Below, piece by piece: positions 4,181 through 30,050 of a stretch of DNA of 37,282 nucleotides. The position numbers and the translations under genes are program-made. This DNA comes from an uncultured Bacteroidia bacterium (GTDB taxonomy: Bacteria; Bacteroidota; Bacteroidia; J057; CALLMJ01). The stretch lies in contig CALLNY010000047.1 of the NCBI GenBank assembly GCA_938005475.1, forward strand, positions 1 to 37,282, read 5' to 3'. How positions within the stretch are numbered: position 1 is the stretch's first letter; each line of letters opens with the position of its first letter. Below the pieces are notes generated by a model. The model had not been told where the DNA came from. It worked only from the letters and a program-made list of their open reading frames with translations, and did no database searches.

Positions 4181-4897
4181 TCATAATCCAAACTTTTCTT
4201 TAAACATAACGGACTGCCTTCGGGATACTTCTACTTTAAGATTGCCCGTCAAAAAAAAGACCAAAGTATTACTAAAATAAGGGTCTACTCTTTCAATGTA
4301 TTGAATGTTAATCAATTCTTGTCTGTTTGCTCTAAAAAAATATTGAGGGTCCAGTTTTAAAGCTAAGGAATTTAAAGAGCGATGAATTAAAGCTTGTTGG
4401 TCTTTAAAGTAAATTCTTGCATAATTTCCCTCGGAGACAATACGCTTAATATCTGATACTTTAATAAAAAAACATTTATCATTATCTCGAACAAATACTC
4501 TGTCTTGAATACTAAAATAATGGTTAGAAGTATCGGATTGGTCTTGTTCTATTAGTTTTTTTACTTTATCTACTGCATCTTTGAGCCTTTGCACTTGAAT
4601 AGGTTTTAGCAAATAATCAACAGCGCCCACCTCAAAAGCTTTCAGTGCGTACTCATCGTAAGCCGTCGTAAAAATAAAATACGGTACTTGCACCAACTCT
4701 TCTAATAAATCAAATCCTGATTTTTCAGGCATATTGATATCTAAAAAAATTAAATCTGGTTTTTCTTTTTCTATCACCTCTAATGCTTCTTCCACATATG
4801 CCGCTTGCCCTACTACCTCAATACCCGATATTTCTTTTAATAAATTTTGGAGTTCTACCCGCGCTAAACGCTCATCATCAATAATAACCACTTTCAT
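4181..4897 (-). CDS. LytTR-family response regulator
   Basis: A 238-residue two-component response regulator. Residues 1-120 form a receiver domain with the acidic pair in VVIIDDERLAR, the phospho-acceptor D53 in LIFLDINMPEKSG, T in FTTAYDEYALKAF and K in LLKPI. Residues of about 130-238 form a LytTR DNA-binding domain (IKRIVSEGNYARIYF, FFRANRQELINIQYIERVDPY). The open frame extends to a TTG at 4913-4915, but that codon lies inside the predicted -7 promoter box, so the ATG at 4897 is chosen. LytTR regulators of this phylum usually pair with a 7TM or His_kinase-type sensor; none is adjacent, so it is an orphan here. No target can be inferred; the downstream amidohydrolase is on the same strand but has its own promoter. 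Confidence 0.92.
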   Translation of the reverse strand: MKVVIIDDERLARVELQNLLKEISGIEVVGQAAYVEEALEVIEKEKPDLIFLDINMPEKSGFDLLEELVQVPYFIFTTAYDEYALKAFEVGAVDYLLKPIQVQRLKDAVDKVKKLIEQDQSDTSNHYFSIQDRVFVRDNDKCFFIKVSDIKRIVSEGNYARIYFKDQQALIHRSLNSLALKLDPQYFFRANRQELINIQYIERVDPYFSNTLVFFLTGNLKVEVSRRQSVMFKEKFGL

Positions 4898-4912
4898 TAT
4901 TACAATTTTCTT

Positions 4913-4920
4913 CAAATATA
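4913..4920 (-). promoter_or_regulatory. -7 promoter element of the LytTR regulator gene
   Basis: The minus strand reads TATATTTG, a perfect TAnnTTTG, 15 bases before the ATG at 4897. A TTTG lies at 4948-4945 (minus), 24 bases upstream, slightly longer than the usual spacing. It overlaps the in-frame TTG at 4913-4915, which argues against that codon as a start. Confidence 0.55.
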
Positions 4921-5018
4921 CAATACTTTACTTTCATTAAATTACAAAATTACTTTATAGGTAAAAAGAAGGGATAAAAGCACATTGAATACCAATTTTT
5001 TTACGCTATTTTTCCTTT

Positions 5019-5047
5019 ATCAATCTAATTAAAAATTTTTTAATTGA
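5019..5047. repeat. AT-rich inverted repeat upstream of the trp promoter
   Basis: ATCAAT at 5019-5024 mirrors ATTGAT at 5042-5047, with AATTAAAAA/TTTTTAATT nested inside and a two-base bulge. It lies between the divergent LytTR and trp promoters. It could be an operator or simply the result of very AT-rich sequence; no known binding site is recognised. Confidence 0.25.
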
Positions 5048-5105
5048 TAATCATTTATTTATAAAGAATAGTAAAAAAATTTTATTACATATTTAATTTT
5101 CAACT

Positions 5106-5113
5106 TATTTTTG
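5106..5113 (+). promoter_or_regulatory. -7 promoter element of the trp operon
   Basis: TATTTTTG matches TAnnTTTG and sits 12 bases before the ATG of the leader peptide at 5126. No TTG is present 17-23 bases upstream, so the -33 half is weak or absent. If transcription starts about 7 bases after the box, near 5120, the leader-peptide message would have only about six untranslated bases and would be almost leaderless. Confidence 0.5.
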
Positions 5114-5125
5114 CGGTTAAATTGT

Positions 5126-5206
5126 ATGGAAGAACAATTCTTACTAATCAATCAATGGTGGTGGCAAATTTTCGCATACAGCAGTAGGCGCCTTAACCTT
5201 TTTTGA
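5126..5206 (+). CDS. trpL: trp operon leader peptide with three consecutive Trp codons
   Basis: A 26-codon frame opens with ATG at 5126 and stops with TGA at 5204-5206. The peptide begins MEEQFLLINQ and then has Trp at residues 11, 12 and 13 (TGG TGG TGG, 5156-5164). Three adjacent Trp codons in a short frame directly in front of a complete trp operon are the hallmark of ribosome-mediated attenuation: the peptide is a sensor of charged tRNA-Trp, not a functional protein. The codons that follow (residues 19-22, SSRR) overlay the RNA segment that can pair with the 5' arm of the terminator, so translation and RNA folding are coupled. No Shine-Dalgarno sequence is visible, and the start lies just after the predicted promoter. 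Confidence 0.88.
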   Translation: MEEQFLLINQWWWQIFAYSSRRLNLF

Positions 5207-5251
5207 TTAGTAGAAAAGTTTTTCTTTACCGCCTACTGTTTTGCAGTAGGC
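5141..5251 (+). promoter_or_regulatory. trp attenuator: competing RNA stems in the leader
   Basis: Three pairings are readable. Outer stem: 5141-5151 pairs with 5203-5213 (ACTAATCAA with TTGATTAGT plus two flanking pairs, one of them G-U); it encloses the Trp codons and the next segment. Antiterminator: CAGTAGGCG at 5182-5190 pairs perfectly with CGCCTACTG at 5230-5238. Terminator: GCCTACTG at 5231-5238 pairs with CAGTAGGC at 5244-5251. The 9-mer GCAGTAGGC occurs identically at 5181-5189 and 5243-5251, so both copies compete for the same partner. Model (inference): a ribosome stalled on the Trp codons covers 5141-5151, breaks the outer stem and frees 5182-5190 to form the antiterminator; with enough Trp the ribosome moves on, the outer stem re-forms and the terminator wins. 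Confidence 0.85.
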
Positions 5252-5264
5252 TTTTTTGTTTTTT
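5231..5264 (+). terminator. intrinsic terminator of the trp attenuator
   Basis: An 8-bp perfect stem (5231-5238 with 5244-5251) and a 5-base loop, TTTTG, are followed by six T, one G and six more T or TG (5252-5264). It ends 12 bases before the trpE ATG, so termination here would silence the whole operon. The run of T encodes the false upstream TTG start of trpE. Confidence 0.9.
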
Positions 5265-5276
5265 GAATATCAACTT

Positions 5277-6665
5277 ATGAAAAAAGAAAAATATCACTTA
5301 CAAATTACGAAATTTATGGGGGATTTATTCACACCCGTAGAATGCTACCAAAAAGTACGGTCTAAGTATCCAATAAGTTTTTTATTGGAAAGTTCTGATT
5401 ACAAATCCAAAGAGGATAGTTTTTCTTACATCGTCTTTGAACCGATTGCTTGCTTGAAGGTTTTTAAGGATTACTATCAACTCCAACATAAAAAAAGCCA
5501 AAATAACTATTCCTTCAACCAATCTTTGGAAAAAATATTACAAAACTTTCTAAATCAGTTTGAAGTTACTACTGAAAATCAAGAAGATTTTATATTGAGT
5601 GGTATTTTTGGTTATACTGCTTATGATGCTATTCCTTTGTTTGAAAATATTCATTTACAACAAAACCCAAATTTTCCGTTAGTGAGTTACTACTTCTTCC
5701 GTAATATTTTAGTTTTCAATCACTTTCATAATGAAATTTATTTGGTTGAGCATCTAAATGAACAAGAAAAACCTCAAAACAATGCTATCTTACAATTTTT
5801 AGAACAAAAACGAAAGTACTTTTTTCCATTTCATTTAAAAGGAGATGAGACCTCTAATTTCACGGACGAAACGTTTCTGGAAGCCATTCAAAAGGTACAG
5901 TATCATTGCCAAATAGGGAATATTTTTCAGTTAGTACTCTCGCGTCAGTTCTACCAACCGTATCAAGGTGATGATTTTCAAGTATATAGGGCTTTACGCT
6001 CCATCAATCCTTCTCCTTACTTATATTATTTTGATTTTGGTAATTTTCGGTTAATGGGCTCTTCCCCAGAAGCGCAAATACGCATTAAAAATTGTATAGC
6101 TTATGTTTTCCCTATTGCAGGCACCTATCAAAGAAAGGAAGATAATTTAGTAGACCTAACACAAAAATTACTATTAGATCCGAAAGAAAATGCAGAGCAT
6201 AACATGTTAGTAGATTTAGCACGAAATGATTTATCAAAAAGCAATTATAATGTAAAAGTAGAAAAATGGAAAACCGTAGAAGTATATTCACATGTAATCC
6301 ATTTAGTTTCCAAGATACAAGGAGAGTTAAAAGAAAAAGGACAGAGTATCAAAGTGATGTTAGATACTTTTCCTGCGGGGACATTAAGCGGTGCTCCCAA
6401 ATATAAAGCTATGCAAATCATCAATGAATTAGAACCTCAACCTCGCGGTCTTTACGGCGGTGCCGCCGGATACATTGGATTTAATGGTAACCTGAACCAT
6501 GCCATCTGTATACGTTCTTTTATCTCCTTTCAAAATACTTTGCAATACCAAGCTGGCTGTGGCATCGTGTTGCTATCTAAACCCCAAAATGAATTAAACG
6601 AAGTATACCACAAAATTTCTGCACTTAGAAAAGCTTTACAAATTGCCCATCATTATGAATATTAA
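5277..6665 (+). CDS. trpE: anthranilate synthase component I
   Basis: A 462-residue enzyme that converts chorismate, with ammonia supplied by TrpG, to anthranilate, the first committed step of tryptophan synthesis. The N-terminal domain carries LLESS at residues 36-40, the segment that in other TrpE proteins binds tryptophan for feedback inhibition, so enzyme-level control is likely in addition to attenuation. The C-terminal chorismate-binding domain is clear: FQLVLSRQF, GSSPEAQIRI, PIAGTYQR, DLARNDLSK, AGTLSGAPKYKAMQII and GGAAGYIGF. The frame stays open back to a TTG at 5256 inside the terminator U-tract; the ATG at 5277 is chosen because it lies past the terminator and gives the usual length. 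It overlaps trpG by 11 bases, which suggests coupled translation of the two subunits. Confidence 0.95.
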   Translation: MKKEKYHLQITKFMGDLFTPVECYQKVRSKYPISFLLESSDYKSKEDSFSYIVFEPIACLKVFKDYYQLQHKKSQNNYSFNQSLEKILQNFLNQFEVTTENQEDFILSGIFGYTAYDAIPLFENIHLQQNPNFPLVSYYFFRNILVFNHFHNEIYLVEHLNEQEKPQNNAILQFLEQKRKYFFPFHLKGDETSNFTDETFLEAIQKVQYHCQIGNIFQLVLSRQFYQPYQGDDFQVYRALRSINPSPYLYYFDFGNFRLMGSSPEAQIRIKNCIAYVFPIAGTYQRKEDNLVDLTQKLLLDPKENAEHNMLVDLARNDLSKSNYNVKVEKWKTVEVYSHVIHLVSKIQGELKEKGQSIKVMLDTFPAGTLSGAPKYKAMQIINELEPQPRGLYGGAAGYIGFNGNLNHAICIRSFISFQNTLQYQAGCGIVLLSKPQNELNEVYHKISALRKALQIAHHYEY

Positions 6666-7221
6666 CATCTTAGTCATCGATAATTACGACTCCTTTACGT
6701 ATAATTTAGTAAATCTGCTTTATGAAGCAGGTATAAAAAGTCTGACAGTCCATAGAAATGACGCTATAAGCATTGAAGCTATACAAAATTTTGATAAAAT
6801 AGTAATCTCTCCAGGACCTGGGCTACCCGAAGAAGCCGGTATCACATTACAAACGATAAAAACGTATGCTCATCAAAAGCCTATTCTGGGGGTTTGTTTA
6901 GGTTTACAAGCTATTGGAGTTGCTTTCAATGGTACCCTCAAAAATCTACACCAACCCCTTCACGGTGTAAATTCTCAAATCTCTATATTACAATCCGATT
7001 ACCTCTTTCAGAATTGCCCCCAACATTTCACTATCGGGCATTATCACTCCTGGGTCATTGATAATCTCCCTGAGCCCCTTGAATTACTTGCCATTGACGA
7101 ACATAATCATATCATGGCAGTGCGTCATAAACATTTTGATGTCCGAGGCGTACAATTTCATCCCGAATCCATCCTTACCGAATACGGATATCAAATCATT
7201 GCGAACTGGGTCAACCATTAA
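6655..7221 (+). CDS. trpG: anthranilate synthase component II (glutamine amidotransferase)
   Basis: A 188-residue class I glutamine amidotransferase that releases ammonia from glutamine for TrpE. The oxyanion motif SPGPGLPEEAG, nucleophile C81 in GVCLGLQAIG, and H169 and E171 in VQFHPES form the expected triad. Full length for a stand-alone TrpG, not fused to TrpE. The frame opens at a TTG (6643), but the ATG at 6655, giving MNINILVIDNYDSFTYNL, matches the family start. It overlaps the trpE end by 11 bases and is 11 bases from trpD. PabA serves folate synthesis with the same fold; position within the trp operon favours TrpG, but dual use cannot be excluded because no pabA is seen. Confidence 0.94.
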   Translation: MNINILVIDNYDSFTYNLVNLLYEAGIKSLTVHRNDAISIEAIQNFDKIVISPGPGLPEEAGITLQTIKTYAHQKPILGVCLGLQAIGVAFNGTLKNLHQPLHGVNSQISILQSDYLFQNCPQHFTIGHYHSWVIDNLPEPLELLAIDEHNHIMAVRHKHFDVRGVQFHPESILTEYGYQIIANWVNH

Positions 7222-7232
7222 CATTATATTTT

Positions 7233-8225
7233 ATGAAAAAAATCTTACAATCTCTATTGAATTACGAAACTTTTGATAAAAATCAAGCCAAACAAGTATT
7301 AATAGACCTCACACAAAACGAGTATCCTACCTCGCAATTAGCCGCTTTTCTTACCATCTTTATGATGCGTGGTCTAACCTTAGAAGAACTTAAAGGCTTT
7401 CGCGAAGCATTACTTGAACTCTGTTTAAAAGTAGATTTAGGAACGGATAATATCATTGATGTTTGTGGTACGGGCGGAGATGCTAAAAATACTTTTAATA
7501 TCTCTACTCTAACCGCTTTCGTTCTAGCAGGTGCCGGTATACCAGTTGCTAAACATGGAAATTATGGAGTAACCTCAGTCTCAGGCTCTTCCACCGTCCT
7601 ACAAAATTTAGGCATCCATTTTACTAATCAAACTGATTTACTCAAAAAACAATTAGAAAAGGCAAACATATGCTTTATGCACGCCCCCTTATTCCATTCC
7701 GCTTTAAAATCCGTTGCACCTATTCGTAAAGAATTACAAGTAAAAACCTTTTTTAATACCCTAGGTCCTCTCATCAACCCCGCTCAACCTCGTTACCAAT
7801 TTAACGGCGTCTTCAACCTTGAACTAGCTCGTATGTACCACCTCCTGTTACAACAAGAAAATAAATATTATTTCGTCTTCTTTACATTAGATGGCTACGA
7901 TGAAATCTCCTTGACCTCCGAATTTAAATTCTTCTCCCATCAAAATGAAGGTATCTTGTACCCCAACGATTTCAATCTTAATTTTTTAGAACCGCATGAA
8001 TTATGTGGTGGTCAAACCGCCCAACAAAGCACCGATATTTTCTTAAATATCTTACAAGCAAAAGGCAACTCCTCTCAAAATAATGTAATTATTATCAATG
8101 CCAGCCTTGCCATTCAACTTTACCGCAATTGTGATTTCTATGAAGCTAAAAAATTAGCAGAAGACAGCCTATTTAACTTAAAAGCACTGCAAAGTTTCCA
8201 AATTTTAAAATCATTAAGTTTATGA
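7233..8225 (+). CDS. trpD: anthranilate phosphoribosyltransferase
   Basis: A 330-residue enzyme that transfers the phosphoribosyl group of PRPP to anthranilate. The PRPP-binding GTGGD loop is at residues 79-83, NIST at 89-92, KHGN at 107-110 and the following SVSGSSTVLQNLG segment. The helical N-terminal domain (SQLAAFLTIFMMRGLTLEE) and the NTLGPLINPAQP block are typical of the family, and length is normal. The ATG at 7233 follows the trpG stop by 11 bases, and its TGA overlaps the trpC ATG (ATGA at 8222-8225). It depends on the attenuated promoter upstream of trpE; no internal promoter was recognised. Confidence 0.95.
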   Translation: MKKILQSLLNYETFDKNQAKQVLIDLTQNEYPTSQLAAFLTIFMMRGLTLEELKGFREALLELCLKVDLGTDNIIDVCGTGGDAKNTFNISTLTAFVLAGAGIPVAKHGNYGVTSVSGSSTVLQNLGIHFTNQTDLLKKQLEKANICFMHAPLFHSALKSVAPIRKELQVKTFFNTLGPLINPAQPRYQFNGVFNLELARMYHLLLQQENKYYFVFFTLDGYDEISLTSEFKFFSHQNEGILYPNDFNLNFLEPHELCGGQTAQQSTDIFLNILQAKGNSSQNNVIIINASLAIQLYRNCDFYEAKKLAEDSLFNLKALQSFQILKSLSL

Positions 8226-9049
8226 GTTTACTAGAAAAAATCATCGTCGATAAACAAAAAGAAGTTCAAAAAAAGAAAAGTTTGTATCCCATCAAAAAAT
8301 TAGAAAAATCCATATATTTTTCTAGTTCTACCATATCTTTAAAGCAACGTATCCTAGAGAACCTTGAACCTTTTTCTATTATTGCCGAATTTAAACGCAA
8401 ATCCCCATCAAAAGGAGTAATCCATGAAAACGCTAAAATTGAAGAAGTCATCTTTGGGTACATGCAAGCAGGTGCCTGTGCGCTTTCTATCCTAACCGAC
8501 GAAAAATACTTCGGTGCAAAACCTAATGATTTATCTACTGCTAGTTACTGGAGTTTATGCCCTATTTTACGTAAAGACTTTATTATCGAAGATTACCAAA
8601 TTTATGAAGCTAAAGCTATCGGTGCCGATGCCATTTTGCTGATTGCAAGAATCCTTTCCTTTAAACAAATTCAAGATTTTACTCAAACCGCCCATCAACT
8701 TGGTATGGAGGTACTCCTTGAATTTCATGACGAACTCGATATTCAAAAATGCGCCGATTTTGACGATTATCACCTCGCAGGCATCAATCACCGAAATTTA
8801 GATACCTTACATTTTGATTTTGAAAATTCACTAAAACTTTACCACCGATTACCCCCTAATATTCCCAAAATTGCAGAAAGTGGAATCCATGAACCCCAAA
8901 CACTCCTAATCTTAAAACAAATAGGATATCACGGATTCTTAATCGGTGAATATTTCATGAAGTCTCATAACCCGGGACAAACCTGTAAAAATTTATTAAA
9001 AGAAGCTAAACAATTATGGGAAACTACCAAATCAAAGTCTGCGGAATGA
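8222..9049 (+). CDS. trpC: indole-3-glycerol-phosphate synthase
   Basis: A 275-residue TIM-barrel enzyme that closes the indole ring from carboxyphenylamino-deoxyribulose phosphate. The active-site block IIAEFKRKSPSKGVI carries E56 and K58, equivalent to the catalytic Glu/Lys of the family; LRKDFIIEDYQIYEAKAIGAD supplies another catalytic lysine, and AGINHRNLDT and IAESGI follow, with a phosphate-binding loop near the C-terminus (GFLIGEYFM). It is separate from TrpF here, unlike the fused form of enterobacteria. It overlaps trpD by four bases and trpF by 34 bases, the longest overlap in the operon, so the last residues of TrpC and the first of TrpF share DNA in different frames. Confidence 0.95.
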   Translation: MSLLEKIIVDKQKEVQKKKSLYPIKKLEKSIYFSSSTISLKQRILENLEPFSIIAEFKRKSPSKGVIHENAKIEEVIFGYMQAGACALSILTDEKYFGAKPNDLSTASYWSLCPILRKDFIIEDYQIYEAKAIGADAILLIARILSFKQIQDFTQTAHQLGMEVLLEFHDELDIQKCADFDDYHLAGINHRNLDTLHFDFENSLKLYHRLPPNIPKIAESGIHEPQTLLILKQIGYHGFLIGEYFMKSHNPGQTCKNLLKEAKQLWETTKSKSAE

Positions 9050-9642
9050 AATATATTGATAACATCCAAGCGGTCAGCTTATTACAACCTGATTTTATAG
9101 GTTTCATCTTTTATCCTCAAACCCCTCGTTATTTCAATCTACCTTCTATCCCCGAACTACATAGCTCGTCAAAAAAAGTCGGTGTATTCGTAAATCCAAC
9201 CCTAGATAATGTCATCAACACTTTTTCTCAATTCAAATTAGATTTCGTGCAACTACATGGAAAAGAATCCCCTGATTTTTGTAAGCAACTCAAATCTAAT
9301 GCTATACCCCTCATCAAAGCTTTTAGTATCAATACTCAAAACGATTTACAACAAACCGCTTTCTACGAAAATCTATGTGATTATTTTTTATTTGACTCTT
9401 TTAAAGGAGGAAGTGGTACAACTTTCTTATGGGATTTATTAAGCTATTACACCGGAAAAACACCTTTCTTTCTTGCAGGAGGAATTAGTTTAGAAAATTT
9501 AGATTATGCTCTAGCTATTCAACACTACGCTTTTTGCGGATTAGATTTGAATAGTAAATGGGAAATTCAACCCGGCTATAAAGATATACAAAAATTAAAA
9601 ATTGGTTTTCAAAAAATTAAAAGTTATGATAAGACCCGATAA
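9016..9642 (+). CDS. trpF: phosphoribosylanthranilate isomerase
   Basis: A 208-residue TIM-barrel enzyme that converts phosphoribosylanthranilate to carboxyphenylamino-deoxyribulose phosphate. The general base C9 in IKVCGMK and general acid D127 in LFDSFKGGSGTTF match the catalytic Cys/Asp pair of the family. GVFVNPTLDNV, VQLHGKE and FLAGGISLENLDYAL are family blocks. The ATG at 9016 lies inside trpC; no later Met precedes the catalytic Cys, so this start is required. The 3' end overlaps trpB by 17 bases. Pathway order would place TrpF before TrpC in the reaction sequence; gene order C-F is the common one. Confidence 0.94.
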   Translation: MGNYQIKVCGMKYIDNIQAVSLLQPDFIGFIFYPQTPRYFNLPSIPELHSSSKKVGVFVNPTLDNVINTFSQFKLDFVQLHGKESPDFCKQLKSNAIPLIKAFSINTQNDLQQTAFYENLCDYFLFDSFKGGSGTTFLWDLLSYYTGKTPFFLAGGISLENLDYALAIQHYAFCGLDLNSKWEIQPGYKDIQKLKIGFQKIKSYDKTR

Positions 9643-10804
9643 ACATGGTTACTACGGTGAATTTGGCGGTGCATTTATTCCTGAAATGCTATTTCAAAAT
9701 GTTTATGAATTACAGCAACAATATGAAAAAATTATTTTTTCAGATGACTTTCAACGAACCTATCAAAGTTATTTAAAAGATTATGTTGGTAGACCCACAC
9801 CGCTCTATGAAGCCCAAAATTTATCGCAACATTATGGAGTGAAGGTATGGCTTAAACGGGAAGATTTATGCCACACGGGCGCTCATAAAATCAACAATGC
9901 CATTGGGCAGGTTTTATTAGCTAAATACATGGGTAAACAGCGTATCATCGCAGAAACCGGAGCCGGACAACATGGCGTAGCTACTGCAACCGCTTGTGCC
10001 TTACTGAACATGCCTTGCCAAATCTTTATGGGCGAAAAAGACATAGAAAGACAAAAACTAAACGTATTAAGAATGAAAATGTTAGGTGCCATCGTTACCC
10101 CTGCCTCTTCAGGTAGTAAAACCTTAAAAGATGCAACCAATGAAGCCATCAGAGCCTGGATACAAGACCCCCAACATACTTATTACGTCATCGGCTCCGT
10201 TGTAGGACCACACCCCTATCCCGACATGGTTGCCCTTTTTCAGTCCATTATAAGCCAAGAAATAAAAACACAACTTCAAGAAAAAGGATACCAATATCCA
10301 AATTATGTAATTGCTTGCGTTGGAGGAGGAAGTAATGCTATCGGAGCTTTTTATCACTTTATTCATAATCCCATAACACAACTCATTGCTGTTGAAGCCG
10401 CTGGTGAAGGTATTCATACCCACAAAACCGCCGCTACCATCACGCTCGGAAAAAAAGGTATCTTACATGGCAGTTTAAGTTACCTCATCCAATCTGATGA
10501 CGGACAAATCTTTGAACCCCATTCTATCTCCGCTGGACTTGACTACCCTGGTATCGGTCCCATCCACAGCTTCTTGTATGAACAAAAAAGAATTCAGGTG
10601 TTATCCGCAACTGACCAAGAAGCACTTGAAGCCGCACTAGAACTTACCCGATTGGAAGGAATTATCCCTGCACTTGAATCAGCCCACGCCTTAGCCGCCT
10701 TAAAAAAAATCCCCTTCCAACAAAACCACTCCATCGTTATCAATCTGTCCGGTAGAGGTGATAAAGATATGAACACTTATCAAAATGTATTTTCCTATGA
10801 ATAA
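9626..10804 (+). CDS. trpB: tryptophan synthase beta chain
   Basis: A 392-residue PLP enzyme that joins indole (from TrpA through a tunnel) with serine to make tryptophan. The PLP lysine is K88 in HTGAHKINNA and the catalytic glutamate is E110 in IIAETGAGQHGVATA; the PLP phosphate loop is VGGGSNAIGAF, and the end has IINLSGRGDKDM. Length and motifs fit the classic TrpB1 type that works with TrpA, not the stand-alone TrpB2. An upstream TTG at 9602 is open, but the ATG at 9626 (MIRPDKHGYYGEFGGAFIP) is the family start. It overlaps trpF by 17 bases and trpA by 8. Confidence 0.96.
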   Translation: MIRPDKHGYYGEFGGAFIPEMLFQNVYELQQQYEKIIFSDDFQRTYQSYLKDYVGRPTPLYEAQNLSQHYGVKVWLKREDLCHTGAHKINNAIGQVLLAKYMGKQRIIAETGAGQHGVATATACALLNMPCQIFMGEKDIERQKLNVLRMKMLGAIVTPASSGSKTLKDATNEAIRAWIQDPQHTYYVIGSVVGPHPYPDMVALFQSIISQEIKTQLQEKGYQYPNYVIACVGGGSNAIGAFYHFIHNPITQLIAVEAAGEGIHTHKTAATITLGKKGILHGSLSYLIQSDDGQIFEPHSISAGLDYPGIGPIHSFLYEQKRIQVLSATDQEALEAALELTRLEGIIPALESAHALAALKKIPFQQNHSIVINLSGRGDKDMNTYQNVFSYE

Positions 10805-11564
10805 ATTACAACAACTCTTTCAAAAAAAGCCAAACAATCTTTTATCAATCTTTTTTACTGCGGGTTATCCACAATTAGAAGATACTATCCCTCTAATTCA
10901 GTATCTGTGCAAGAGTAGCGTAGATTTTATAGAAATTGGATTCCCTTTCTCTGACCCCCTCGCAGATGGACCCACAATACAAGCCACAAACTATCAGGCT
11001 ATTCAAAATGGAATGACCCTATCTCTCCTTTTTAAACAACTTTCCTCTCTACCCCCTATCTCTACCCCTTTAATTCTTATGGGATACCTAAACCCCATCC
11101 TACAAATGGGAATACCCCAATTCCTGCATAATTGCTCACAAAACCAAATTGACGCAATTATTATCCCTGACTTGCCTTTTGATTACTACGAAAAATATTT
11201 CCAAAAAACTATGAGTGAATACAACATATGTTCCGTATTCCTTGTAACCCCCTCTACCCCACCTGATAGACTAAACCAAATCAAACAATTTACCACAGGA
11301 TTCGTCTATGTCGTTTCAGATAACTCTATTACAGGTAAAAACATTGATTTTCAAAAACAAAAGAAATATCTCGAAAATTTACAACAATGCCTTGAAGGCG
11401 TACCTAAAATCATTGGTTTCGGAATAAAAGACCCTCTATCTTTTCAAACAGCTTGTCAGTTTGCTAATGGTGCTATTATAGGCTCGGCTTTTCTCAATCA
11501 TTTAAAAAACCATAAAATCTCTTTAGAACTCGTTCAAAACTTTATTCAATCTATAAGGCTATGA
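10797..11564 (+). CDS. trpA: tryptophan synthase alpha chain
   Basis: A 255-residue TIM barrel that splits indole-3-glycerol phosphate into indole and glyceraldehyde-3-phosphate. Catalytic E46 (VDFIEIGFPF) and D57 (SDPLADGPTIQ) are present, as are FFTAGYP and the loop-6 region DNSITGKN. Two in-frame ATGs exist, at 10785 and 10797; the second is chosen because its overlap with the trpB stop resembles the other junctions and the protein then begins in the usual way. It is the last gene of the operon. Its stop lies inside the 3' end of the opposing nuoL gene (14-base overlap), and no terminator is visible after it, so transcripts from both sides may run into each other. Confidence 0.95.
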   Translation: MNKLQQLFQKKPNNLLSIFFTAGYPQLEDTIPLIQYLCKSSVDFIEIGFPFSDPLADGPTIQATNYQAIQNGMTLSLLFKQLSSLPPISTPLILMGYLNPILQMGIPQFLHNCSQNQIDAIIIPDLPFDYYEKYFQKTMSEYNICSVFLVTPSTPPDRLNQIKQFTTGFVYVVSDNSITGKNIDFQKQKKYLENLQQCLEGVPKIIGFGIKDPLSFQTACQFANGAIIGSAFLNHLKNHKISLELVQNFIQSIRL

Positions 11565-14967: not shown

Positions 14968-15909
14968 TTATTGAATAATTTTATTATAATGCTGTTGAAA
15001 ATCTTTGTAAACACTTTGAATACCAGTTTTTAAATCAATTTGGGGTTTCCAGCCTAATTTCAGAATTTTGGAGCTATCCATCAATTTACGGGGAGTTCCA
15101 TTCGGTTTTGTTGTATCAAATTCAATACTTCCTTTATAATTTAGGATTTTCTTTATTAGTAGTGCTAAATCTTTTATAGAAATTTCGGAATTAGACCCTA
15201 CGTTAATATGATGTAGTCCATCATAATGAATCATTAAAAAGAGACAAGCTTCAGCGAGGTCGTCAACGTGTAAAAATTCTCTTAAAGGAGAACCATCTCC
15301 CCATACAATCACTTTATCGTAATGATGAATTTTTGCTTCGTGGAACTTTCTAATCAAAGCAGGTAAAACATGAGAATTTTGTAAATCATAATTATCATTA
15401 GGTCCATATAAATTCGTAGGCATGGCAGAAATAAAGTTACAACCATATTGTAACCGAAAATTTTCACATAATTTGATACCTGCAATTTTAGCAATAGCGT
15501 ATGGTTCATTAGTAGGCTCTAAGGCACCTGTGAGTAAAGCTTCTTCGGGTATAGGTTGAGGAGCGTACTTAGGGTAAATACAAGAAGAACCTAAAAATAA
15601 TAACTTTTTCACTTGATATTTCCATGAAGCTTGAATGACATTGGTCTCGATTAGCAGATTATCTAATAAAAAATCTGCACGATAAGTATTATTAGCATAG
15701 ATACCGCCTACTTTTGCGGCTGCAAGAAATACGTACTCTGGCCGTTCTTGCTCAAAAAAACTCATCACTGCATCTTGATTTCGTAAGTCTAGTTCTTGAG
15801 AAGTTTTGTAAATCAAATTAGAATACCCTTTTTTTTGTAATAACCGAAGTATTGCAGAGCCTACCATTCCTCTATGCCCCGCTACGTAAATTTTAGATTT
15901 TTGCTCCAT
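14968..15909 (-). CDS. fcl: GDP-L-fucose synthase
   Basis: A 313-residue SDR-family epimerase/reductase that makes GDP-L-fucose from GDP-4-keto-6-deoxymannose for surface polysaccharide or glycoprotein. The NAD(P) glycine-rich loop [14 protein letters not shown] is at residues 9-22; the catalytic Ser is in LGSSCIYPK (about 107-113), and Tyr137/Lys141 in [24 protein letters not shown] and [23 protein letters not shown] are specific to this enzyme. The partner GDP-mannose dehydratase (gmd) is not adjacent. The ATG shares one base with the stop of the upstream gene (TAATG on the minus strand), so the two are translated from one message. Confidence 0.92.
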
Positions 15910-17450
15910 TAACTTAATTTAATTTGTACATCGTTACCAGTTCTTAATTTTATTTCTTTTGAAACTAACTGATAAAACTCTTCTGAATACGAAGTTCCAT
16001 TCAGTAAAGATTTAAGAAAAGAATTAAAACAAATATGTTCATCATCACCTATCGAAATTCGAGTCTTGGTAGCCAAAAAATCTTTAATAGTTTCTAAAAA
16101 ATTTTTATCTTCTTTCCAATCTTTATTCTTAGACATATAAAATAAAATTTGAATAAAGTCTTTTTTTCTTTGAGGAATATCTTTTAAGTTATTTAGCTCC
16201 ATTTCTAAATTTTTGATTATGGAGGTATCTTTTTTCTTTAATATAATTATTATCATGGCTTTATAGATATTGATATCTAGCTTAACGGAACTGCTTAAAT
16301 AGTGAGAAAAACTTTTCTTTTTTTCTAGTTTTAGGAATATTTCTAAAGCATTTTCGTAATTGGCATTGATAAAATAATAATTAGCTAAATTAAATAAAAA
16401 AATAAAACTTACATCGATACGATTATTGATGAGATTTCTTTCTAAAATATCTAATGTTGCAAAAATAGCACTGCTGACTTTTCCTGTATAAGCTAAAGCT
16501 ACCGTTTTAACTTGATAGTACAAAAGTAGATAAGAACCGAGTGCTTCTGCTTCAGGCAATTGCAAATCTTTATAAAAACGCTCTAAATAAACATTACATT
16601 CTTCAAAACGAAACTGTCTTAATAAATAAAGGCACATCCTGTAAGTGATAGATAATTTTTTTTCGATATTTTTTTTGTTAAACAAAAGCTGTTTATCCCA
16701 ATTCAAAAAGTGTTGCTCATATTGTTTAAATAATTCGTAGGTGTTATCGTTATATATCATTACTTCAATGATAATAGAAAGCACTTTGTATTGAAGATTA
16801 AAAGTTTCTAGTTTTGTTAAGTCATACAAATGAAACTGCGTAAGATAATTATCTAATTTATTTAAAATTTCGGAATGAGGCAAAGAATAATTGGATTTAT
16901 AGAGTTCATATTTAAAGGTAGAATAATCTACTTCTAATTGATTAAAGATTTCTGCTTTCTTTCTAGCATTTTTTTGTTTTTCTATAATTTCATAAACTTC
17001 TATTTCAGGATATACTTGGGCAATAGCGAGCATGTGAGAATAAACCACTATTAATAATTCAAAATCAGAATTTTGTTCACATATTTTTTCGGCTTTTAAT
17101 AAAGCTTTTAATGCTTTTTCATGTAAATTTTTATTTCTCAAATAATGAGCAATATTGATATTATTACTTACTTCTGTGAAATAATTTCCTTCGCTTTGAA
17201 TAGATAAGTCTAAAACAAAATCTTCTATTAAGACTTTAAGCCGATGCCGAACCTGATAAAAGTAGTTCGTTTCTTTTATTCCCAATTCTTTCAAGATTTG
17301 ATTTTCAGTTTTATCGTAATCTTTTCTATAAATTTCAAAGAGGCGTAACGGTAGACTATCTTTATCTTTTCCTTTATGAGCTATAAACTCATAAAACTGT
17401 TTATACTCTTTTTCTGATAAAGAAGCAATAATAATTCCTATACTTTTCAT
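15909..17450 (-). CDS. helical-repeat protein of unknown function
   Basis: A 513-residue, probably cytoplasmic protein with no signal peptide or membrane segment. It is almost entirely alpha-helical and rich in Leu, Lys, Glu and aromatic residues. Paired helices such as [20 protein letters not shown] and [18 protein letters not shown] resemble TPR units in its middle and C-terminal parts. The N-terminal 80 residues ([36 protein letters not shown]) look like a separate helical domain. I recognise no catalytic motif and no named family. It overlaps fcl by one base, an arrangement usually seen in operons, but the link to fucose synthesis may be incidental. Confidence 0.7.
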
Positions 17451-19812: not shown

Positions 19813-22800
19813 TTAGAACAAGAATTTCATTCCAAATACTAGCACGTCATCGGTTTGAGGTTCATTACCTTTCCATTCATCAAAAGTTTTACGCAACAGA
19901 TTTTCAATATCAGGCATTTTTTTGTGTTGGTTTTTTAGTAATAATTCACGAAAACGAGGAGAAGTAAATTTTCTGTTTTGGTTACCGCCGAATTGGTCTG
20001 TAAAACCATCAGTAAATAAATAAATTGCATCACCATTTTCAATATTCAAGATATGATGTTGATAGGTTCTATTTTCTTGGATAGTAGTACCACCAACCCC
20101 CAGTTTATCACCTTTAATTTCGTGGAGGTCATATTGATGCCACCAGAGCAGGGGTCTTCCAGCACCAGCAAATTCTACTATTTTTTTAGAGAAATCTATT
20201 CGTACCAAGGCAATATCCATACCATCTTTAGAGCCAGATTCTGCCTGTTTTAATCTTCTAAAAATTTCTTGGTGTAATAGTTCTAGGATAGTAGAAGTGG
20301 TTCGCAATTCTTTTTGATTGACTAAATCGTTTAAGATATTGTGCCCAATTAGGGACATAAAAGCGCCCGGGACACCATGCCCTGTACAATCCGCTATTGC
20401 TATAAAATATTGATTACCTACTTTCTGAAACCAATAAAAATCCCCTGAAACAATGTCTCTTGGTAAATACAACAAAAAGAAATTTTCTAACTCTTTTTGC
20501 ATCTCGGATATTTCAGGTAAAAATGCTTCTTGAATTCTTTTTGCGTAGTTAATACTTTCGGTTAAGTCTCGATTGATTTCTTCAATTTCCTTTTTTTGCA
20601 GTAATACTTCCTCGTTGATTTTTTCTAAAATTTGGTTTTGTTGAAGGATTTTCTTTTCAGCAATTTTTTGGTCGGTAATATCATGAGCTAATGCAAGTAC
20701 TGTCTCTACTTCATTTTCTAGATTGATTTCAGGGATAATATCCACCTTTAATATTCTATCTCCCATAATACTGGGCATAGTAAGTTCAGTTTTAATAATT
20801 TTTTTATTCCTAATAACCTCTCGGGTCATAGTATCCCAAAAAATAATAATATCATTAGAAAAATCTACATCGTAAATCGTGTTTTTGATATAAAAATCAG
20901 GCTTATGTCCAGTATATTGTTCAATAACAGGATTGATGTAAGCAATTTTAAGATTTTTCTCAAAGCGAATGATTAAATCGGTGGAGTTCTCAGATAATGA
21001 TTGAAACTGCTGACGTCTTTTTGCGTTATCTTCTGCTCTTAATCGTTCTGTAATATCTTGAATGTTTAATAAGTAACCGTTAATTGAATGGTCTTCAATA
21101 AGGTTTTTGGTTTTTACTTCAAGGAAAATATTTTGTTGATTTTTTAATTTTAATTTGATTTGAAGCACTCTTTCACTTTCATTCCCAGAGATATAAAGCA
21201 TTTGTAAAGATTGTTTCAAATTTTCGATATCCTCAGGGGGTATAAATTTATAAATACCAAATCCTAAAAGTTCATTTGGGTGATATCCCAAAATATTTAA
21301 ACAAGCAGGGCTTATATATTTGAGACTAAAGTTTTCGTCTAGAATAGCAATGACTTCTGAAGAATTTTGCAGTATAGTTTGGAGTTTTTTTTCGGATAAA
21401 ATCAGTTCGTTAGCAGTTTTATCTAAGGCTTGCATTTGTTTAGCTAATTTTTGATTAGTTTGGTTAATTTCAAACTGATTTTTTTCTAGTTGTAGGGCGT
21501 ATTTTTCTAATTCATCGGATTTAAGTTTTAATTTTTCGGTTAATTCTTCTGCTTGTTCAAGGAGTTGAAGGGTTGTTTGATGATTATAGATATTACTGAT
21601 TACTGATGCAAAGTTAGAAGAAACGATTTTAATGAATTCTTGCTCCTCGGGGTATAATAATTTTAGGGAGGCTATTTCAAGAACACCATAAAGGTTATCA
21701 TTAGAAACTAACGGAACAATCATTAAACAAGCAGGTTTGATGGGAGTTTCACCGATATTCATATTGATGTAGTCATCAGGGACTTGGGTTAAGTAGATGG
21801 TTTCAAGGGAGACGGCTACTTGCCCTACAAGCCCCTCACCGAATAAAAAAGTATCATGAAAAGCAGGCGAAGCATTCTGTGCATAAGTGGAAGATAGAAT
21901 TAAACGGGGGATTTTAGAACGAGCATCCACAATAAATAAAGCGGCTTGCTGTGTTTTGAGGTATCTACACAATTGAATGACAAATTCATCGGATAACGTT
22001 TCTAAGGTATGAGCTTTTCGTAGTAACTCGCTGAATAAGAGATGCCCTTTAAGTGCCCAATTTTTTAGTTCATTTTGATTTTCGAAGTGTTGTATTTTTT
22101 CTCTCAGTTCTAACAATCCTTTAATATATTTATTTTCTTGGTCAAGGTCAAGGATTGGTAAATTTTTATTATAGAGGATAGCTTCAGAGATTACTTGCGT
22201 TTTTTGGTATTGATTAGCAATGTAAGAAAGATTACGAGCAATTTGGTTTAAGATTTCATCTTGTTCAAGGATTAAAGGAGGAGGATTTTCTCCGTTAGCT
22301 ATTTGTTGGCTATAATTTTGAATTTCTAAAATAGGTTTTAATACGGTTCTTACTAAGAAAGAACTCAAAATTAAGATGATAATTCCTAAAAAAATAACAC
22401 CAGAGGCTAGGTAAATATTAAAAAAGAAAGTTTTGTTCAAATAATCGTCAAATTTAGATTTCAAAACTTTATTTCTTGAAAAACTTAATTTATCAAGCCA
22501 AAGCACAGTTTGTTCGTAATGAATTTGAAGTTTATAGAAAACTATTTTATGGGCATCATGGAGTTTATTTATATCTTGTTTTAGATAAAAATCTTCCATT
22601 AGTTTTGAGACTATTTGGAATTCTTCTTCATATTTTTCGAGGTTAGTGATAAAATTTTTAAGAATTTCTTTATCGTTATTAGTCCAATCGGAGGCTTGAT
22701 TTTGAAGAATAATTTTAATTTCGGTTAAGTCTTTATCCCAAAAAGGGAAAGGAGAGTGAAGATTGTCGGTAATCATTAGAGAACGGATTACGGCGAGGTG

Positions 22801-22992
22801 TAGTTTTTGGATAGCAGAAGTTAGGACATGAATATTTTTTTGTACTTTAGATTTTTCTGTTTCATAATCATGGATATGAGTTTTAATGGAGTCTAGGAAG
22901 TATAAAGAACCGATGGTAATAATAGCAACCAAAATAAGATTGGAAGCGAGCGTAATATTGAGTCTAAAATTTAAAGATTTAGAGAACTTCAT
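19813..22992 (-). CDS. membrane HAMP-GAF-PAS-PAS-SpoIIE (PP2C-type) phosphatase
   Basis: A 1059-residue sensor phosphatase. Order: membrane helix about 16-36, a helical extracytoplasmic domain to about 185, a second membrane helix about 190-215, HAMP, GAF about 320-470 (FGEGLVGQ, VPDDYI), coiled coil, PAS about 534-655, PAS about 660-780, coiled coil, and a SpoIIE/RsbU-type Ser/Thr phosphatase from about 830. The metal-binding acidic residues are kept in SGDFYWF, ADCTGHGVPGAFMS, FTDGFTDQFGG and QTDDVLVFG, so the domain should be active. Such phosphatases usually act on an anti-sigma-factor antagonist; none is in the window. It is the last gene of an operon with cheB, cheR and the PAS-array protein, overlapping cheB by 14 bases. 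Its GAF closely resembles that of the PAS-array protein. Confidence 0.93.
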   Translation of the reverse strand: MKFSKSLNFRLNITLASNLILVAIITIGSLYFLDSIKTHIHDYETEKSKVQKNIHVLTSAIQKLHLAVIRSLMITDNLHSPFPFWDKDLTEIKIILQNQASDWTNNDKEILKNFITNLEKYEEEFQIVSKLMEDFYLKQDINKLHDAHKIVFYKLQIHYEQTVLWLDKLSFSRNKVLKSKFDDYLNKTFFFNIYLASGVIFLGIIILILSSFLVRTVLKPILEIQNYSQQIANGENPPPLILEQDEILNQIARNLSYIANQYQKTQVISEAILYNKNLPILDLDQENKYIKGLLELREKIQHFENQNELKNWALKGHLLFSELLRKAHTLETLSDEFVIQLCRYLKTQQAALFIVDARSKIPRLILSSTYAQNASPAFHDTFLFGEGLVGQVAVSLETIYLTQVPDDYINMNIGETPIKPACLMIVPLVSNDNLYGVLEIASLKLLYPEEQEFIKIVSSNFASVISNIYNHQTTLQLLEQAEELTEKLKLKSDELEKYALQLEKNQFEINQTNQKLAKQMQALDKTANELILSEKKLQTILQNSSEVIAILDENFSLKYISPACLNILGYHPNELLGFGIYKFIPPEDIENLKQSLQMLYISGNESERVLQIKLKLKNQQNIFLEVKTKNLIEDHSINGYLLNIQDITERLRAEDNAKRRQQFQSLSENSTDLIIRFEKNLKIAYINPVIEQYTGHKPDFYIKNTIYDVDFSNDIIIFWDTMTREVIRNKKIIKTELTMPSIMGDRILKVDIIPEINLENEVETVLALAHDITDQKIAEKKILQQNQILEKINEEVLLQKKEIEEINRDLTESINYAKRIQEAFLPEISEMQKELENFFLLYLPRDIVSGDFYWFQKVGNQYFIAIADCTGHGVPGAFMSLIGHNILNDLVNQKELRTTSTILELLHQEIFRRLKQAESGSKDGMDIALVRIDFSKKIVEFAGAGRPLLWWHQYDLHEIKGDKLGVGGTTIQENRTYQHHILNIENGDAIYLFTDGFTDQFGGNQNRKFTSPRFRELLLKNQHKKMPDIENLLRKTFDEWKGNEPQTDDVLVFGMKFLF

Positions 22993-23590
22993 TGAAGGTT
23001 AGATGATTAATGATTTTAAGGAAATCAGAGATTTCATTAGGTTTGAGTTGGAGGTCTATGGAAGTAGATTTTGAGGCGGCTTCGGGCATGGTAGTCATAG
23101 AGCAGGTGGAAAGGTCTTGAATGATGGTAAGCCCACCTTTACTTTTGATTGTTTTCATACCATCAGCACCGTCTCTATTGGCACCTGATAGTAAGATAGC
23201 GACGAGTTGGTCTCTATATACATCTGCGGCGGATTCAAAAAGTACATCAATAGAGGGTCTTGAAAATTGAACAAGTTCCGTAATGGATAGAGCGATAATA
23301 TTTTTATTTTCAATTAACATGTGATAATTAGCGGGAGCTAAATAAGCGATGTTTGGTTGAATCATGGTTTTATCATCAGGTTCTTCAATTTTAATTTTAG
23401 ATTTTATTTCTAAGGCTTCTTTGAAACCTTCTCTTTTATCTTTTAGGCGATGTAAACACATGAATATGGGTAAAGCAAAGGGTTGAGGAAGTTCAGTTAA
23501 GATTTGCGTAATAATAGAAAAACTTCCAGCGGAACCACCAATCACGATAGCTTCAAATTTTCTTTCTTTCAAGATAGCTTCAAAATTCAT
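22979..23590 (-). CDS. cheB: stand-alone CheB-type protein-glutamate methylesterase
   Basis: A 203-residue protein consisting only of the CheB methylesterase domain. The catalytic triad is visible: S20 in VIGGSAGSF, H47 in MCLHRLK and D140 in LSGANRDGADGM; AYLAPANYHM and MTTMPEAA are further family blocks. The receiver domain that normally controls CheB is missing, so activity is not governed by CheA phosphorylation in the usual way. CheB removes methyl groups added by CheR to glutamates of a receptor. It overlaps cheR by four bases (ATGA) and the phosphatase gene by 14, so the three are probably translated together. No chemoreceptor, CheA or CheW gene is in the window. Confidence 0.92.
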   Translation of the reverse strand: MNFEAILKERKFEAIVIGGSAGSFSIITQILTELPQPFALPIFMCLHRLKDKREGFKEALEIKSKIKIEEPDDKTMIQPNIAYLAPANYHMLIENKNIIALSITELVQFSRPSIDVLFESAADVYRDQLVAILLSGANRDGADGMKTIKSKGGLTIIQDLSTCSMTTMPEAASKSTSIDLQLKPNEISDFLKIINHLTFNEVL

Positions 23591-24432
23591 GCTTTAATTT
23601 TTCGGAAGATTTTTTCATGAGAGTTTACAGTTTCAAATTTATCGGCAATCTTACACCAAATCAACGATTCTTTAGCGCCTAAACATAAAAAACCATTCAT
23701 AAATAAACTATTGTGCAACAGCTCAAACACGCGATTTTGAAGTTCTTGATTAAAATAAATCATGACGTTTCTACAAAGAATTAAATCAAATTTGTAGAAA
23801 TGGACATCTCTGGCGAGGTCATGGTGTTTAAATTTAACGTTCTGAATAAGTCGCTTATCAAATTGCATAGTTCCATTTTCAATGGTATAGTAATCAGATA
23901 GTTGGCCTGGGAACTCTGTTTTAGCGTAATTTTCGTGATAGAAATCTAAATTTCTTACGGGGAAAGCGGCAGAAGCGGCTTTTTGTAGTACTACATGATT
24001 GATATCTGTTGCATAAATCTTTGCTTTATTTAAAATTCCCTCTTGGTCTAATAAAATTGCTAAGGAAATGACTTCCTCGCCTGTTGAACAGGCGGCATGC
24101 CAAACATTAAACTCTGGTTTCGTTGCTAAAACAGGTACTACTTGGTGTTTCAGGGCTTTGTAAAAGGTAGGATCTCGGAACATTTCTGTTGTATTCACGG
24201 TAATATCCAGCACAAATTGCTCAAAAAAAGCCGGCTCAAATAAAATTTTTTGGATGAGTTTGTCCACCGATTTTAAACCATATTTTTTGAGTACCATTAA
24301 GATTCTTCTTTTAAATGAAGAAATCGCATAATTACTAAAATCATAACCGTACTTCGTGAAGATAGCATCGGTTAGTTTGGTAATCTCCTCTAACTCTATT
24401 TGAATAATTTCTTCGTCGGGTCTATTGAACAT
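23587..24432 (-). CDS. cheR: CheR-type protein-glutamate methyltransferase
   Basis: A 281-residue SAM-dependent enzyme that methylates receptor glutamates. The N-terminal helical domain (FSNYAISSFKRRILMVLKKYG) corresponds to the CheR receptor-binding domain. NTTEMFRD at residues 80-87 and the SAM loop ACSTGEE at 114-120, followed by YATDINHVVLQKA and ILCRNVMIYFN, are diagnostic. Family members often read NxTxFFRD, so M in place of the first F is a mild variation. No TPR extension is present. It starts five bases after the stop of the PAS-array gene and overlaps cheB by four bases. The tight linkage suggests that the PAS-array protein, rather than a classic chemoreceptor, is a methylation target; this is inference. 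Confidence 0.93.
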   Translation of the reverse strand: MFNRPDEEIIQIELEEITKLTDAIFTKYGYDFSNYAISSFKRRILMVLKKYGLKSVDKLIQKILFEPAFFEQFVLDITVNTTEMFRDPTFYKALKHQVVPVLATKPEFNVWHAACSTGEEVISLAILLDQEGILNKAKIYATDINHVVLQKAASAAFPVRNLDFYHENYAKTEFPGQLSDYYTIENGTMQFDKRLIQNVKFKHHDLARDVHFYKFDLILCRNVMIYFNQELQNRVFELLHNSLFMNGFLCLGAKESLIWCKIADKFETVNSHEKIFRKIKA

Positions 24433-24437
24433 AAATC

Positions 24438-27400
24438 TTATTTTTGATAAGCAACAACAATATATTTTAGAATTTCGTTATTTAAACTTTTAATTGGCTG
24501 AATAAATACTTTAAAAGTATTTTGTCTTATATTAATCTCACCTTGCCAAGAAGAATTTTTTTTAAATTGCTTCTGAACTTCTTCTAACCAGTTTTTACTT
24601 ATCATAGGAGTAATAATATCCCATTTGATATAAAAGTAATTTTGTGGGTCTATACGTAATAAATTACAGACTTTTTCATTTGCATATGAGATAAAACCAT
24701 TTTTATCAATTTCTGCTAAGTACTCAAAATCTTTGAAGATTTGCTCTTTTTGTTGTAATTCATAACGAAGATTTTTGAATTCTTGAAGAGAAAATAGGAC
24801 GGATTCTAAATTATTTTCTAAGGAAAGTTTTTGTTCTTGAAGTTCAGATATTTGGTGGTACAATTTAGTTAAATCTTGGAAGAGCCCCCAATAGACAAAG
24901 TTATCGTTTTCAATATCTAAAAATAGGGTAAGCTCGAAGAATTTATGTTGGTATTCAAAAAAATAAGCCCAAGAACCTTTTAGGTTTAAATCAGTAAGCA
25001 TTTGATGGGTTAGTTCTTCGTTGATATGATTTTGTAATAAGACAACAAAAGGTTGATGGATTAGCTCATCAGGGTTTAAATGTAAAGACTGGGACAGGCT
25101 TTCAGAAATCCAAATTAAATTGGCTTCATGGTCAGCTTTGAATGCATTGATAAAATTGGGTAAAGTATTAGAATGATTAAGTAATAAGTTCTGATTTTGA
25201 AGTTCAAGGATTTGTTGTTTATAATTTTCTTCGGATTGTTCTGCTTTTTTGAGGGCTTCACGAATTCTGAAAGATTGTATTTTTTGGGTGGTAATATCGA
25301 AGGCTACTCCAATAAACTTGTAGGGTTTATTATTTTGTCCAAGGACTGGGGTAATTGTCAGTTGTATCCAGAATTCTCTTCCTTTTTTATCTATATTACA
25401 AATTTCTCCTTTCCATACTTTGCCGGCATAAATTGTTTGGTTGAGTTCTCTGTAGAACTCTTCAGAATGCTTGTTAGATTTAAGGATACTATGTTTTTTG
25501 CCTATTACTTCCTCGTGATTGTATCCCCAGATAGTTAATGCTTCATCGTTTACGTAGGTAATCAACCCATTGAAGTCGGTTTCAGAGACGAGAGCGGACT
25601 GATTGATAGCGTTAATTTGTCCGGATAATTCTATTTGAGTTTCTAGCATTTGTGCTTGTACTTCTTCAAGAGTTTTGGAATATTTTCGTAGTTCTTCTTC
25701 ATTTTTTTGTGATTCTTCAAGTACTTGTTTGATGCGTAGGGCTTGTCTTTTTTGTTTGGTGATATCAAAGGCTACGGCAATAAATTTAAAGGGCATATGA
25801 TTTTCATCGAGTACGGGAGTTATAGTAATGTTTACCCAGAACTCTGTTCCATCTTTTGCTTGATTTTTGAGTTCTCCTTTCCATACTCTACCGGATAGGA
25901 TAGTTTGCCATAATTCTTGAAATAAGGTATCGGGGTGTTCATTAGATTTAATGAGGTTATGTTTTTTACCGATGACTTCTTGAGCGGTATATCCCCAGGT
26001 TCTTAATCCTTCATCATTTACAAAGAGGATATTTCCTTGCAAGTCAGTTTCAGAGACTAATGCGGCGTTGTTCACTGCGGCAATTTGTCCTTCTAATTCT
26101 ACTTGAGTTTTTCGTAGAATTTGTGCATTTTCTTCTAATAGTTTTTGTTGTTTTTGAGATTGTTCGAGAGCGTTTTTTAGGTTTTCATCTAATTCTTTTT
26201 GTACAGTAATATCCAGTATAGTACCGTCAATGAATTGAAGGTTGCCGAATTCGTCATATAAACCTTTTCCTTTGTCGCGTACCCAGCGAATTTTTTTGTC
26301 TTTTGTAACCAATCTATAATCAATGGAATAAGGTTGTCTATCTTCTAGACATTTTTCTATGTAAGTTTTAACTTCCTTGAGGTCTTCATCATAGATAAGT
26401 TTAATGAAGGTTTTACGTTTGTTGTAGAGAAGTTCAATAGCGGCGTATCCAGTAACTTCATAGACATGACTATTGACTAGGGTGATGGTCCAATCTTCAT
26501 CGTTCATTCTACGGTAAATAATACCGGGGATGTTGGAGAAGATGGAGTCCATTTGTTCCTGTTTTTTTCGTATTTCTTCTTTTTGATTTTGAGCAGTTAT
26601 AAGAGCTTCTTGTAGTAATTTTTCTTGGGTTTTAATTTTGGTGATATCAAATTGAACGGATATAAATTTTACGGGCTTTCCTTCGGTTCCGAGCACAGGT
26701 GTGATAGTAGTAGCGACCCAAAACTCTGTTCCATCTTTTGCTTTATTACAAATTTCACCAGACCATACTCTGCCTTCGGTGATAGTTTGCCACATTCTAA
26801 TAAAGAAGTCATCGGTATGATAGCCTGACTTCAACAGCCGAAGATTTTTTCCGATAAGTTCTTCACGGGAGTATTTAGAGACGATAATAAATTCATCATT
26901 TACAGTTAAAATATTACCTTGCAAGTCTGTTTCGGATACAATAGCGGAGTTATTGATAGCGTTGATTTGACCACGAAGTTCAATTTGAGTTTCTAACATT
27001 TTTTGGGCATTTTTACGGAGTTCATCTTCTTGGGCTTGAGCGATTTCGAGTGCTTGTTTAATACGTTCGGATTGTCTTTTCTGGGCGGTTATATCAAAAG
27101 AGACGCCGATATATTTGATGGGTTTACTATCAAATCCTAATACAGGAGTAATAGTTGAGCGTATCCAGTAAAATTGCCCATCTTTGGCTTTATTGCAAAA
27201 CTCGCCATGCCAAACCTTACCTTCTGTAATCACTTTCCATAATTCAGCATAGAGGCTTTCATGGTGTTGCCCGGATTTAAGCATTCTATGATTTTGACCT
27301 AACAATTCTTCTCTTGCGTATTTAGAAACTCTGATAAACTGCTCGTTGAGAGTAATGATATTACCTCTTAAATCAGTTTCAGCGACGATAGCGGCATTAT

Positions 27401-29942: not shown

Positions 29943-29959
29943 TTTTGCGGTATAATTTG

Positions 29960-29991
29960 CAAAATTATTGAATAATCCTATAAATAACAAA
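29960..29991 (-). promoter_or_regulatory. promoter of the PAS-array/cheR/cheB/phosphatase operon
   Basis: On the minus strand TTTG (29991-29988) and TAATTTTG (29967-29960) are separated by 20 bases, a full match to the phylum consensus. The ATG at 29942 is 17 bases further on, which fixes the start of the first gene. Confidence 0.7.
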
Positions 29992-30050
29992 CAAGTAAAT
30001 TCCATAGACAGACATAAAGCGTTAATTAGAAAGGGTGAATAAAAAATTTG

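Follow-up and report, generated by a model that had tools for sequence, protein, structure and literature searches.

A predicted ribosome-mediated trp attenuator of the Bacteroid-trp kind, and its relatives across Bacteroidia

Introduction

Ribosome-mediated attenuation is itself textbook biology. For the Bacteroidota, a tryptophan leader has been described by Weinberg et al. 2010 as Bacteroid-trp (RF01692, "Bacteroidete tryptophan peptide leader RNA"; PMC2864571, Table 1). This RNA is found upstream of the trp operon of Flavobacterium psychrophilum, where it has already been likened to the Escherichia coli trp leader (PMC6414381), and the transcriptome of the same species was reported to give "strong clues" for leader-peptide attenuation before amino-acid biosynthesis operons (PMC9723704). 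That transcriptome also shows a TAnnTTTG box spanning −12 to −5 relative to the mapped starts and finds 5.5% of mRNAs to be leaderless (PMC9723704). In another phylum, attenuation is the only trp control of Sinorhizobium meliloti trpLE(G), and the leader AUG is at or near the 5′ end of the leader transcript (PMC7298713).

Here, we analyze a trp leader in a 37,282-nucleotide contig (CALLNY010000047.1, hereafter the window) from an uncultured Bacteroidia bacterium. An initial annotation, made from the sequence, had proposed a ribosome-mediated trp attenuator and raised the possibility that such a leader was undescribed in the phylum. That suggestion falls away, as the leader is known there as Bacteroid-trp; the biology of the trp leader is not new, being both catalogued and near-universal in the class.

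Results

All the parts named from the sequence are present in the leader, and the observation is real: a 26-codon open reading frame (ORF) with three Trp codons, a terminator, and a repeated 9-mer stand before a full trp operon, all on the forward strand. A promoter of the TAnnTTTG type had also been proposed, and the box TATTTTTG, a match to the Bacteroidota −7 box read from the sequence, lies at 5106–5113. The leader peptide ORF, MEEQFLLINQWWWQIFAYSSRRLNLF, occupies 5126–5206 (ATG at 5126, TGA at 5204–5206) and is recognized both from its sequence and from similar Trp-rich leader ORFs in relatives. Its three adjacent Trp codons, TGG TGG TGG, are at 5156–5164 and are kept in relatives as WWW, WW, or WxW. 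RNA folding places these codons within a long hairpin, with segment 1 (5139–5151; core ACTAATCAA at 5143–5151) as the 5′ side and segment 1′ (5203–5216; core TTGATTAGT at 5203–5211), which overlaps the leader stop codon, as the 3′ side. Segment 2, the antiterminator arm GCAGTAGGCG, is within the leader ORF at 5181–5190, starting 16 nt past the last Trp codon, and was assigned by folding and by locus-matched complementarity in relatives. Segment 3 (5230–5239), from terminator search and folding, pairs with segment 2 to make the antiterminator, and its positions 5231–5239 are also the 5′ arm of the terminator. Segment 4 (5243–5264), from the sequence and the terminator search, consists of the terminator 3′ arm, GCAGTAGGC at 5243–5251, and then a T-rich tract; GCAGTAGGC is thus present twice, at 5181–5189 and 5243–5251. 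The terminator search returned a single intrinsic terminator, against 0.2 expected in shuffles, with its stem at 5231–5251 followed by TTTTTTGTTT.

The stem ends 25 nt before trpE, the first structural gene (5277–6665, ATG at 5277), which was identified by the Pfam domains Anth_synt_I_N and Chorismate_bind and by protein alignment. The remainder of the operon, trpG, trpD, trpC, trpF, trpB, and trpA, follows at 6643–11564 on the same strand (Pfam), giving the order trpEGDCFBA. The locus has the general features of a trp attenuator: its trp genes are preceded by a short leader ORF in which Trp codons cluster, and an intrinsic terminator stands before the first structural gene. The nearest gene upstream of the leader, at 4181–4915, is on the opposite strand, so there is no adjacent upstream forward-strand gene to terminate. 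Elsewhere in the window, a large sensory cluster occupies 19813–30005 on the reverse strand: a 1,855-aa protein with about seven PAS domains and one GAF domain (24438–30005) is followed by CheR (23587–24432), CheB (22979–23590), and a GAF-PAS-SpoIIE phosphatase (19813–22992), all on that strand. A 513-aa ORF at 15909–17450, also on the reverse strand, had zero Pfam matches at E 0.001.

The 171-nt leader region folds at −47.0 kcal/mol, compared with −30.9 ± 3.2 for shuffles (z = −4.96). This full-length fold combines the long hairpin, which extends over 5124–5229 and encloses the Trp codons, with the terminator; an untranslated leader should accordingly stay off. Folding with parts masked, a check put forward in the initial annotation, gave both alternative structures. 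Ribosome footprints for masking were textbook values, with masking to 5175 standing for a ribosome stalled on the Trp codons and masking to 5217 for one at the stop codon. When RNA was masked to 5175 (5176–5242 folded), the antiterminator was the minimum-energy fold at −18.9 kcal/mol, and it remained the minimum (−19.2 kcal/mol) after segment 4 was included. When RNA was masked to 5217 (5218–5262 folded), the terminator formed at −14.5 kcal/mol, and it also formed when segment 2 alone was removed (5190–5262 folded). Both folding and the swap test described below put the antiterminator where segment 2 would stay free while a ribosome occupies the Trp codons.

The TrpE proteins of relatives were located by protein search, yielding 98 trpE loci; named genome contigs across Bacteroidia supplied 80 of these, and the order and class of the window the other 18. 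A leader was counted where an ORF with WW or WxW lay within 300 nt upstream of trpE, and dinucleotide-preserving shuffles served as the control. Such Trp-Trp or Trp-x-Trp leader ORFs were found at 82 of the 98 loci, compared with 60 of 1,960 shuffled upstream regions (3%). A terminator was present at 80 of the 82 leader-bearing loci, mostly 20–45 nt past the leader stop, while the distance from terminator to trpE varied, often being 20–90 nt and reaching 160 nt. The leader peptides themselves vary between relatives, as in MKTITNNTWWWNNLRQTS (Flavobacterium frigidarium), MKNLLNNNWWWHTNLSRGL (a Chitinophagaceae MAG), and MIKINHKNIWWHQLSLAAG (a Mucilaginibacter MAG), with the Trp codons kept. The leader of the same-genus relative (L002) has a different peptide, MIKNSLVLTAWWWHFNDYDSR, but keeps WWW; its CAGTAGGT arm spans the end of the ORF, and a matching terminator is present. 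Used as the query of a DNA similarity search, the leader matched the same-genus genome at the terminator hairpin alone, and its matches in other genomes were unrelated terminators; a search of Bacteroidales genomes with the pattern TGGTGGTGG was uninformative.

Sixteen of the 98 loci had no WW/WxW match. One of these (L102) has a WWW leader slightly further upstream, and three (L007, L096, and L123) have a putative single-Trp leader with a terminator. Of the other 12, most carry ahead of trpE a stretch that, read by eye, resembles the end of TrpB; in most leaderless loci, trpE seems from its sequence context to lie behind trpB and so not to be the first gene. RF01692 scored above cut-off ~1.3–1.5 kb upstream of trpE in five such genomes, all Bacteroidales and including Bacteroides fragilis and B. 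finegoldii (L058, L059, L081, L084, and L117). As this position is the presumed start of trpB, the leader is apparently kept at the head of the operon even though the first gene differs.

These comparisons bear on three alternative readings of the locus. In one, the Trp-rich ORF is a chance frame, and the terminator acts constitutively or serves a transcript arriving from upstream; short Trp-containing ORFs do arise by chance in 3% of shuffles, but the opposite strand of the nearest upstream gene and the joint conservation of leader, terminator, and matching complementarity contradict this account, which we regard as highly improbable. Another is that tryptophan is sensed without a ribosome, through a TRAP-like protein, a T-box, or a riboswitch, with the peptide incidental. 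Comparable systems exist elsewhere, and the strong leader fold would suit one; however, neither a T-box nor any other Rfam family was found in the window, and conservation is highest at the Trp codons, whereas the surrounding RNA differs between families, so that this too is given very little credence. It is likewise very unlikely that the leader regulates translation of trpE, by coupling or by occlusion of its start, rather than transcription: the terminator stem ends close to the trpE start in the window, whereas the textbook form of the terminator, with its T tract, recurs across the leader-bearing loci at varied distances from trpE. Ribosome-mediated attenuation is the reading that fits these relatives, in which Trp codons, terminator, and complementarity between segments 2 and 3 are all retained. 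Relatives without Trp codons or without that complementarity had been named in the initial annotation as evidence that would count against it; the relatives came out in its favor.

Complementarity was examined by a swap test on 77 loci, in which the region after the Trp codons was paired with the terminator (5′ arm plus loop) of its own or of other loci. Own pairs averaged −12.5 kcal/mol and swapped pairs −9.2, and 20 of the 77 loci fell within the best 5%, against 3.9 expected. The associated P values (Kolmogorov-Smirnov, 3e−12 and 2e−11 for the two swap directions; Wilcoxon, 5e−10) are optimistic, as related loci are not independent, while the exchange of partners among relatives with similar terminators counteracts the signal. 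An earlier test, using only the terminator 5′ arm against shuffled regions, was weak, with P ≤ 0.05 at 22 of 80 loci. The pairing sequences differ by group and yet match, being AGTAGGC/GCCTACT in the window's genus, CGGGG/CCCCG in Chitinophagaceae, and GCCGG/CCGGC in Mucilaginibacter and Pedobacter, which means that both sides have changed together. In Flavobacteriaceae, the pairing found between segments 2 and 3 was short and frequently at chance level; support for the antiterminator model is therefore not uniform and is best in the window's genus, Chitinophagaceae, and several other groups. In the best loci, 8–22 nt separate the final Trp codon from the start of segment 2. At 67 of 80 loci, the antiterminator arm starts before the leader stop codon is complete, so that the norm in the class is an arm lying inside the ORF or straddling its 3′ end. 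Thus, the arm does lie inside the leader ORF, as first noted, but the layout is not the unusual one it was taken to be.

We compared these leaders with Rfam at the RF01692 gathering cut-off of 49 bits. Among 40 class loci (two scans of 20), 16 were at or above the cut-off, each directly upstream of trpE at the Trp leader, and these members share the anatomy of the window's element. In closer relatives of the window (G025, G026, G032, G009, G013, and G012), matches fell below the cut-off yet were located on the leader. The window itself gave zero RF01692 matches, with none at E 10 within 5000–5400, and the E. coli-type Trp_leader family likewise had no match there at gathering score. The model misses the window's copy and, among the copies scanned beyond Flavobacteriales and Bacteroidales, the majority. 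Judged by anatomy, position, and the intermediates, the window's element is a diverged member of Bacteroid-trp that does not reach the Rfam threshold.

Finally, the putative promoter box sits only a short way ahead of the leader ORF. With the spacing seen in F. psychrophilum, transcription of the window's leader would start at about 5118, leaving a predicted 5′ UTR of 8 nt. Among 77 leaders, 35 had a TAnnTTTG box (at least 5 of 6 positions) that ended 4–13 nt ahead of the leader start, where shuffles would give 3.4, and this spacing implies a 5′ UTR of 0–9 nt. The same spacing occurred before 26 of 143 long ORFs in a control of ten stretches from two genomes, the window's own and a relative's (Fisher P = 3e−5 compared with the leaders). 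When only sequences with any box within 40 nt were considered, the counts were 35 of 61 leaders and 26 of 66 long ORFs, a marginal difference (P = 0.05). A tendency of leader ORFs toward short 5′ UTRs is suggestive only. We offer tentatively, as somewhat less than an even prospect, the reading that Trp leader ORFs of Bacteroidia are near-leaderless, starting at the AUG or a few nucleotides before it, though leaderless mRNAs are rare in the phylum; for B. thetaiotaomicron, the published figure for 5′ UTRs under 10 nt is about 3.7%.

Discussion

Sequence comparison and modeled folding make it very probable that the leader in the window belongs to the Bacteroidota (Bacteroid-trp) kind and attenuates transcription of the trp operon by a ribosome-mediated mechanism. 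The comparative criteria all point to a functional element. The anatomy, the folding energies, and the conservation across the class are direct observations. From them we infer a start site, ribosome positions, and a response to tryptophan. RNA polymerase would initiate near 5118, and a ribosome would start the leader ORF at 5126. With charged tRNA-Trp scarce, the ribosome should stall on the Trp codons at 5156–5164, where it would sit over segment 1 and open the long hairpin, leaving segment 2 (5181–5190) unpaired. Pairing of segment 2 with segment 3 (5230–5239) would then block the terminator and allow trpEGDCFBA to be transcribed. With charged tRNA-Trp plentiful, the ribosome would cross segment 2 and reach the stop codon at 5204; with segment 2 covered, segments 3 and 4 would pair, and transcription would end past the T tract, at about 5252–5264. 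In a leader that is not translated, the long hairpin and the terminator are both predicted to fold, and the operon would remain off.

TrpR (PF01371) was not found in the window's genome or in the same-genus relative. If the near-leaderless reading is true, the first ribosome would be tied closely to the polymerase, and the attenuator would be the sole tryptophan-specific control in genomes without TrpR. In two genomes from another family of the same order, a TrpR-like gene (PF01371) is located ~0.4–0.6 kb upstream of a trpE-like match (L019 in G006 and L020 in G010), which suggests a possible swap of control system.

More broadly, a catalogued leader emerges as a near-universal trp control across Bacteroidia, beyond the groups recognized by the Rfam model. 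The ~80 leaders form a comparative data set for a better covariance model, and a rebuilt model would annotate many more.

In comparison with known systems, the window's element shares with Bacteroid-trp its occurrence in Bacteroidota, its position upstream of the first trp gene, its Trp-rich leader ORF, and the succession of a long hairpin around the Trp codons and a terminator arm; it differs in that the Rfam model does not recognize this copy. With E. coli trpL, it has in common Trp codons that lie side by side, an antiterminator and a terminator that exclude each other, and a full trp operon downstream. The E. coli trp leader ORF stops before segment 2, whereas the window's crosses it, and the window further departs from the enterobacterial leader in its Bacteroidota promoter and in a genome without TrpR. 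The S. meliloti trpLE(G) leader resembles the case proposed here in having attenuation as the sole trp control and a start at or near the leader AUG. It belongs to another phylum, however, and controls only trpE(G), whereas the whole operon lies downstream of the leader in the window.
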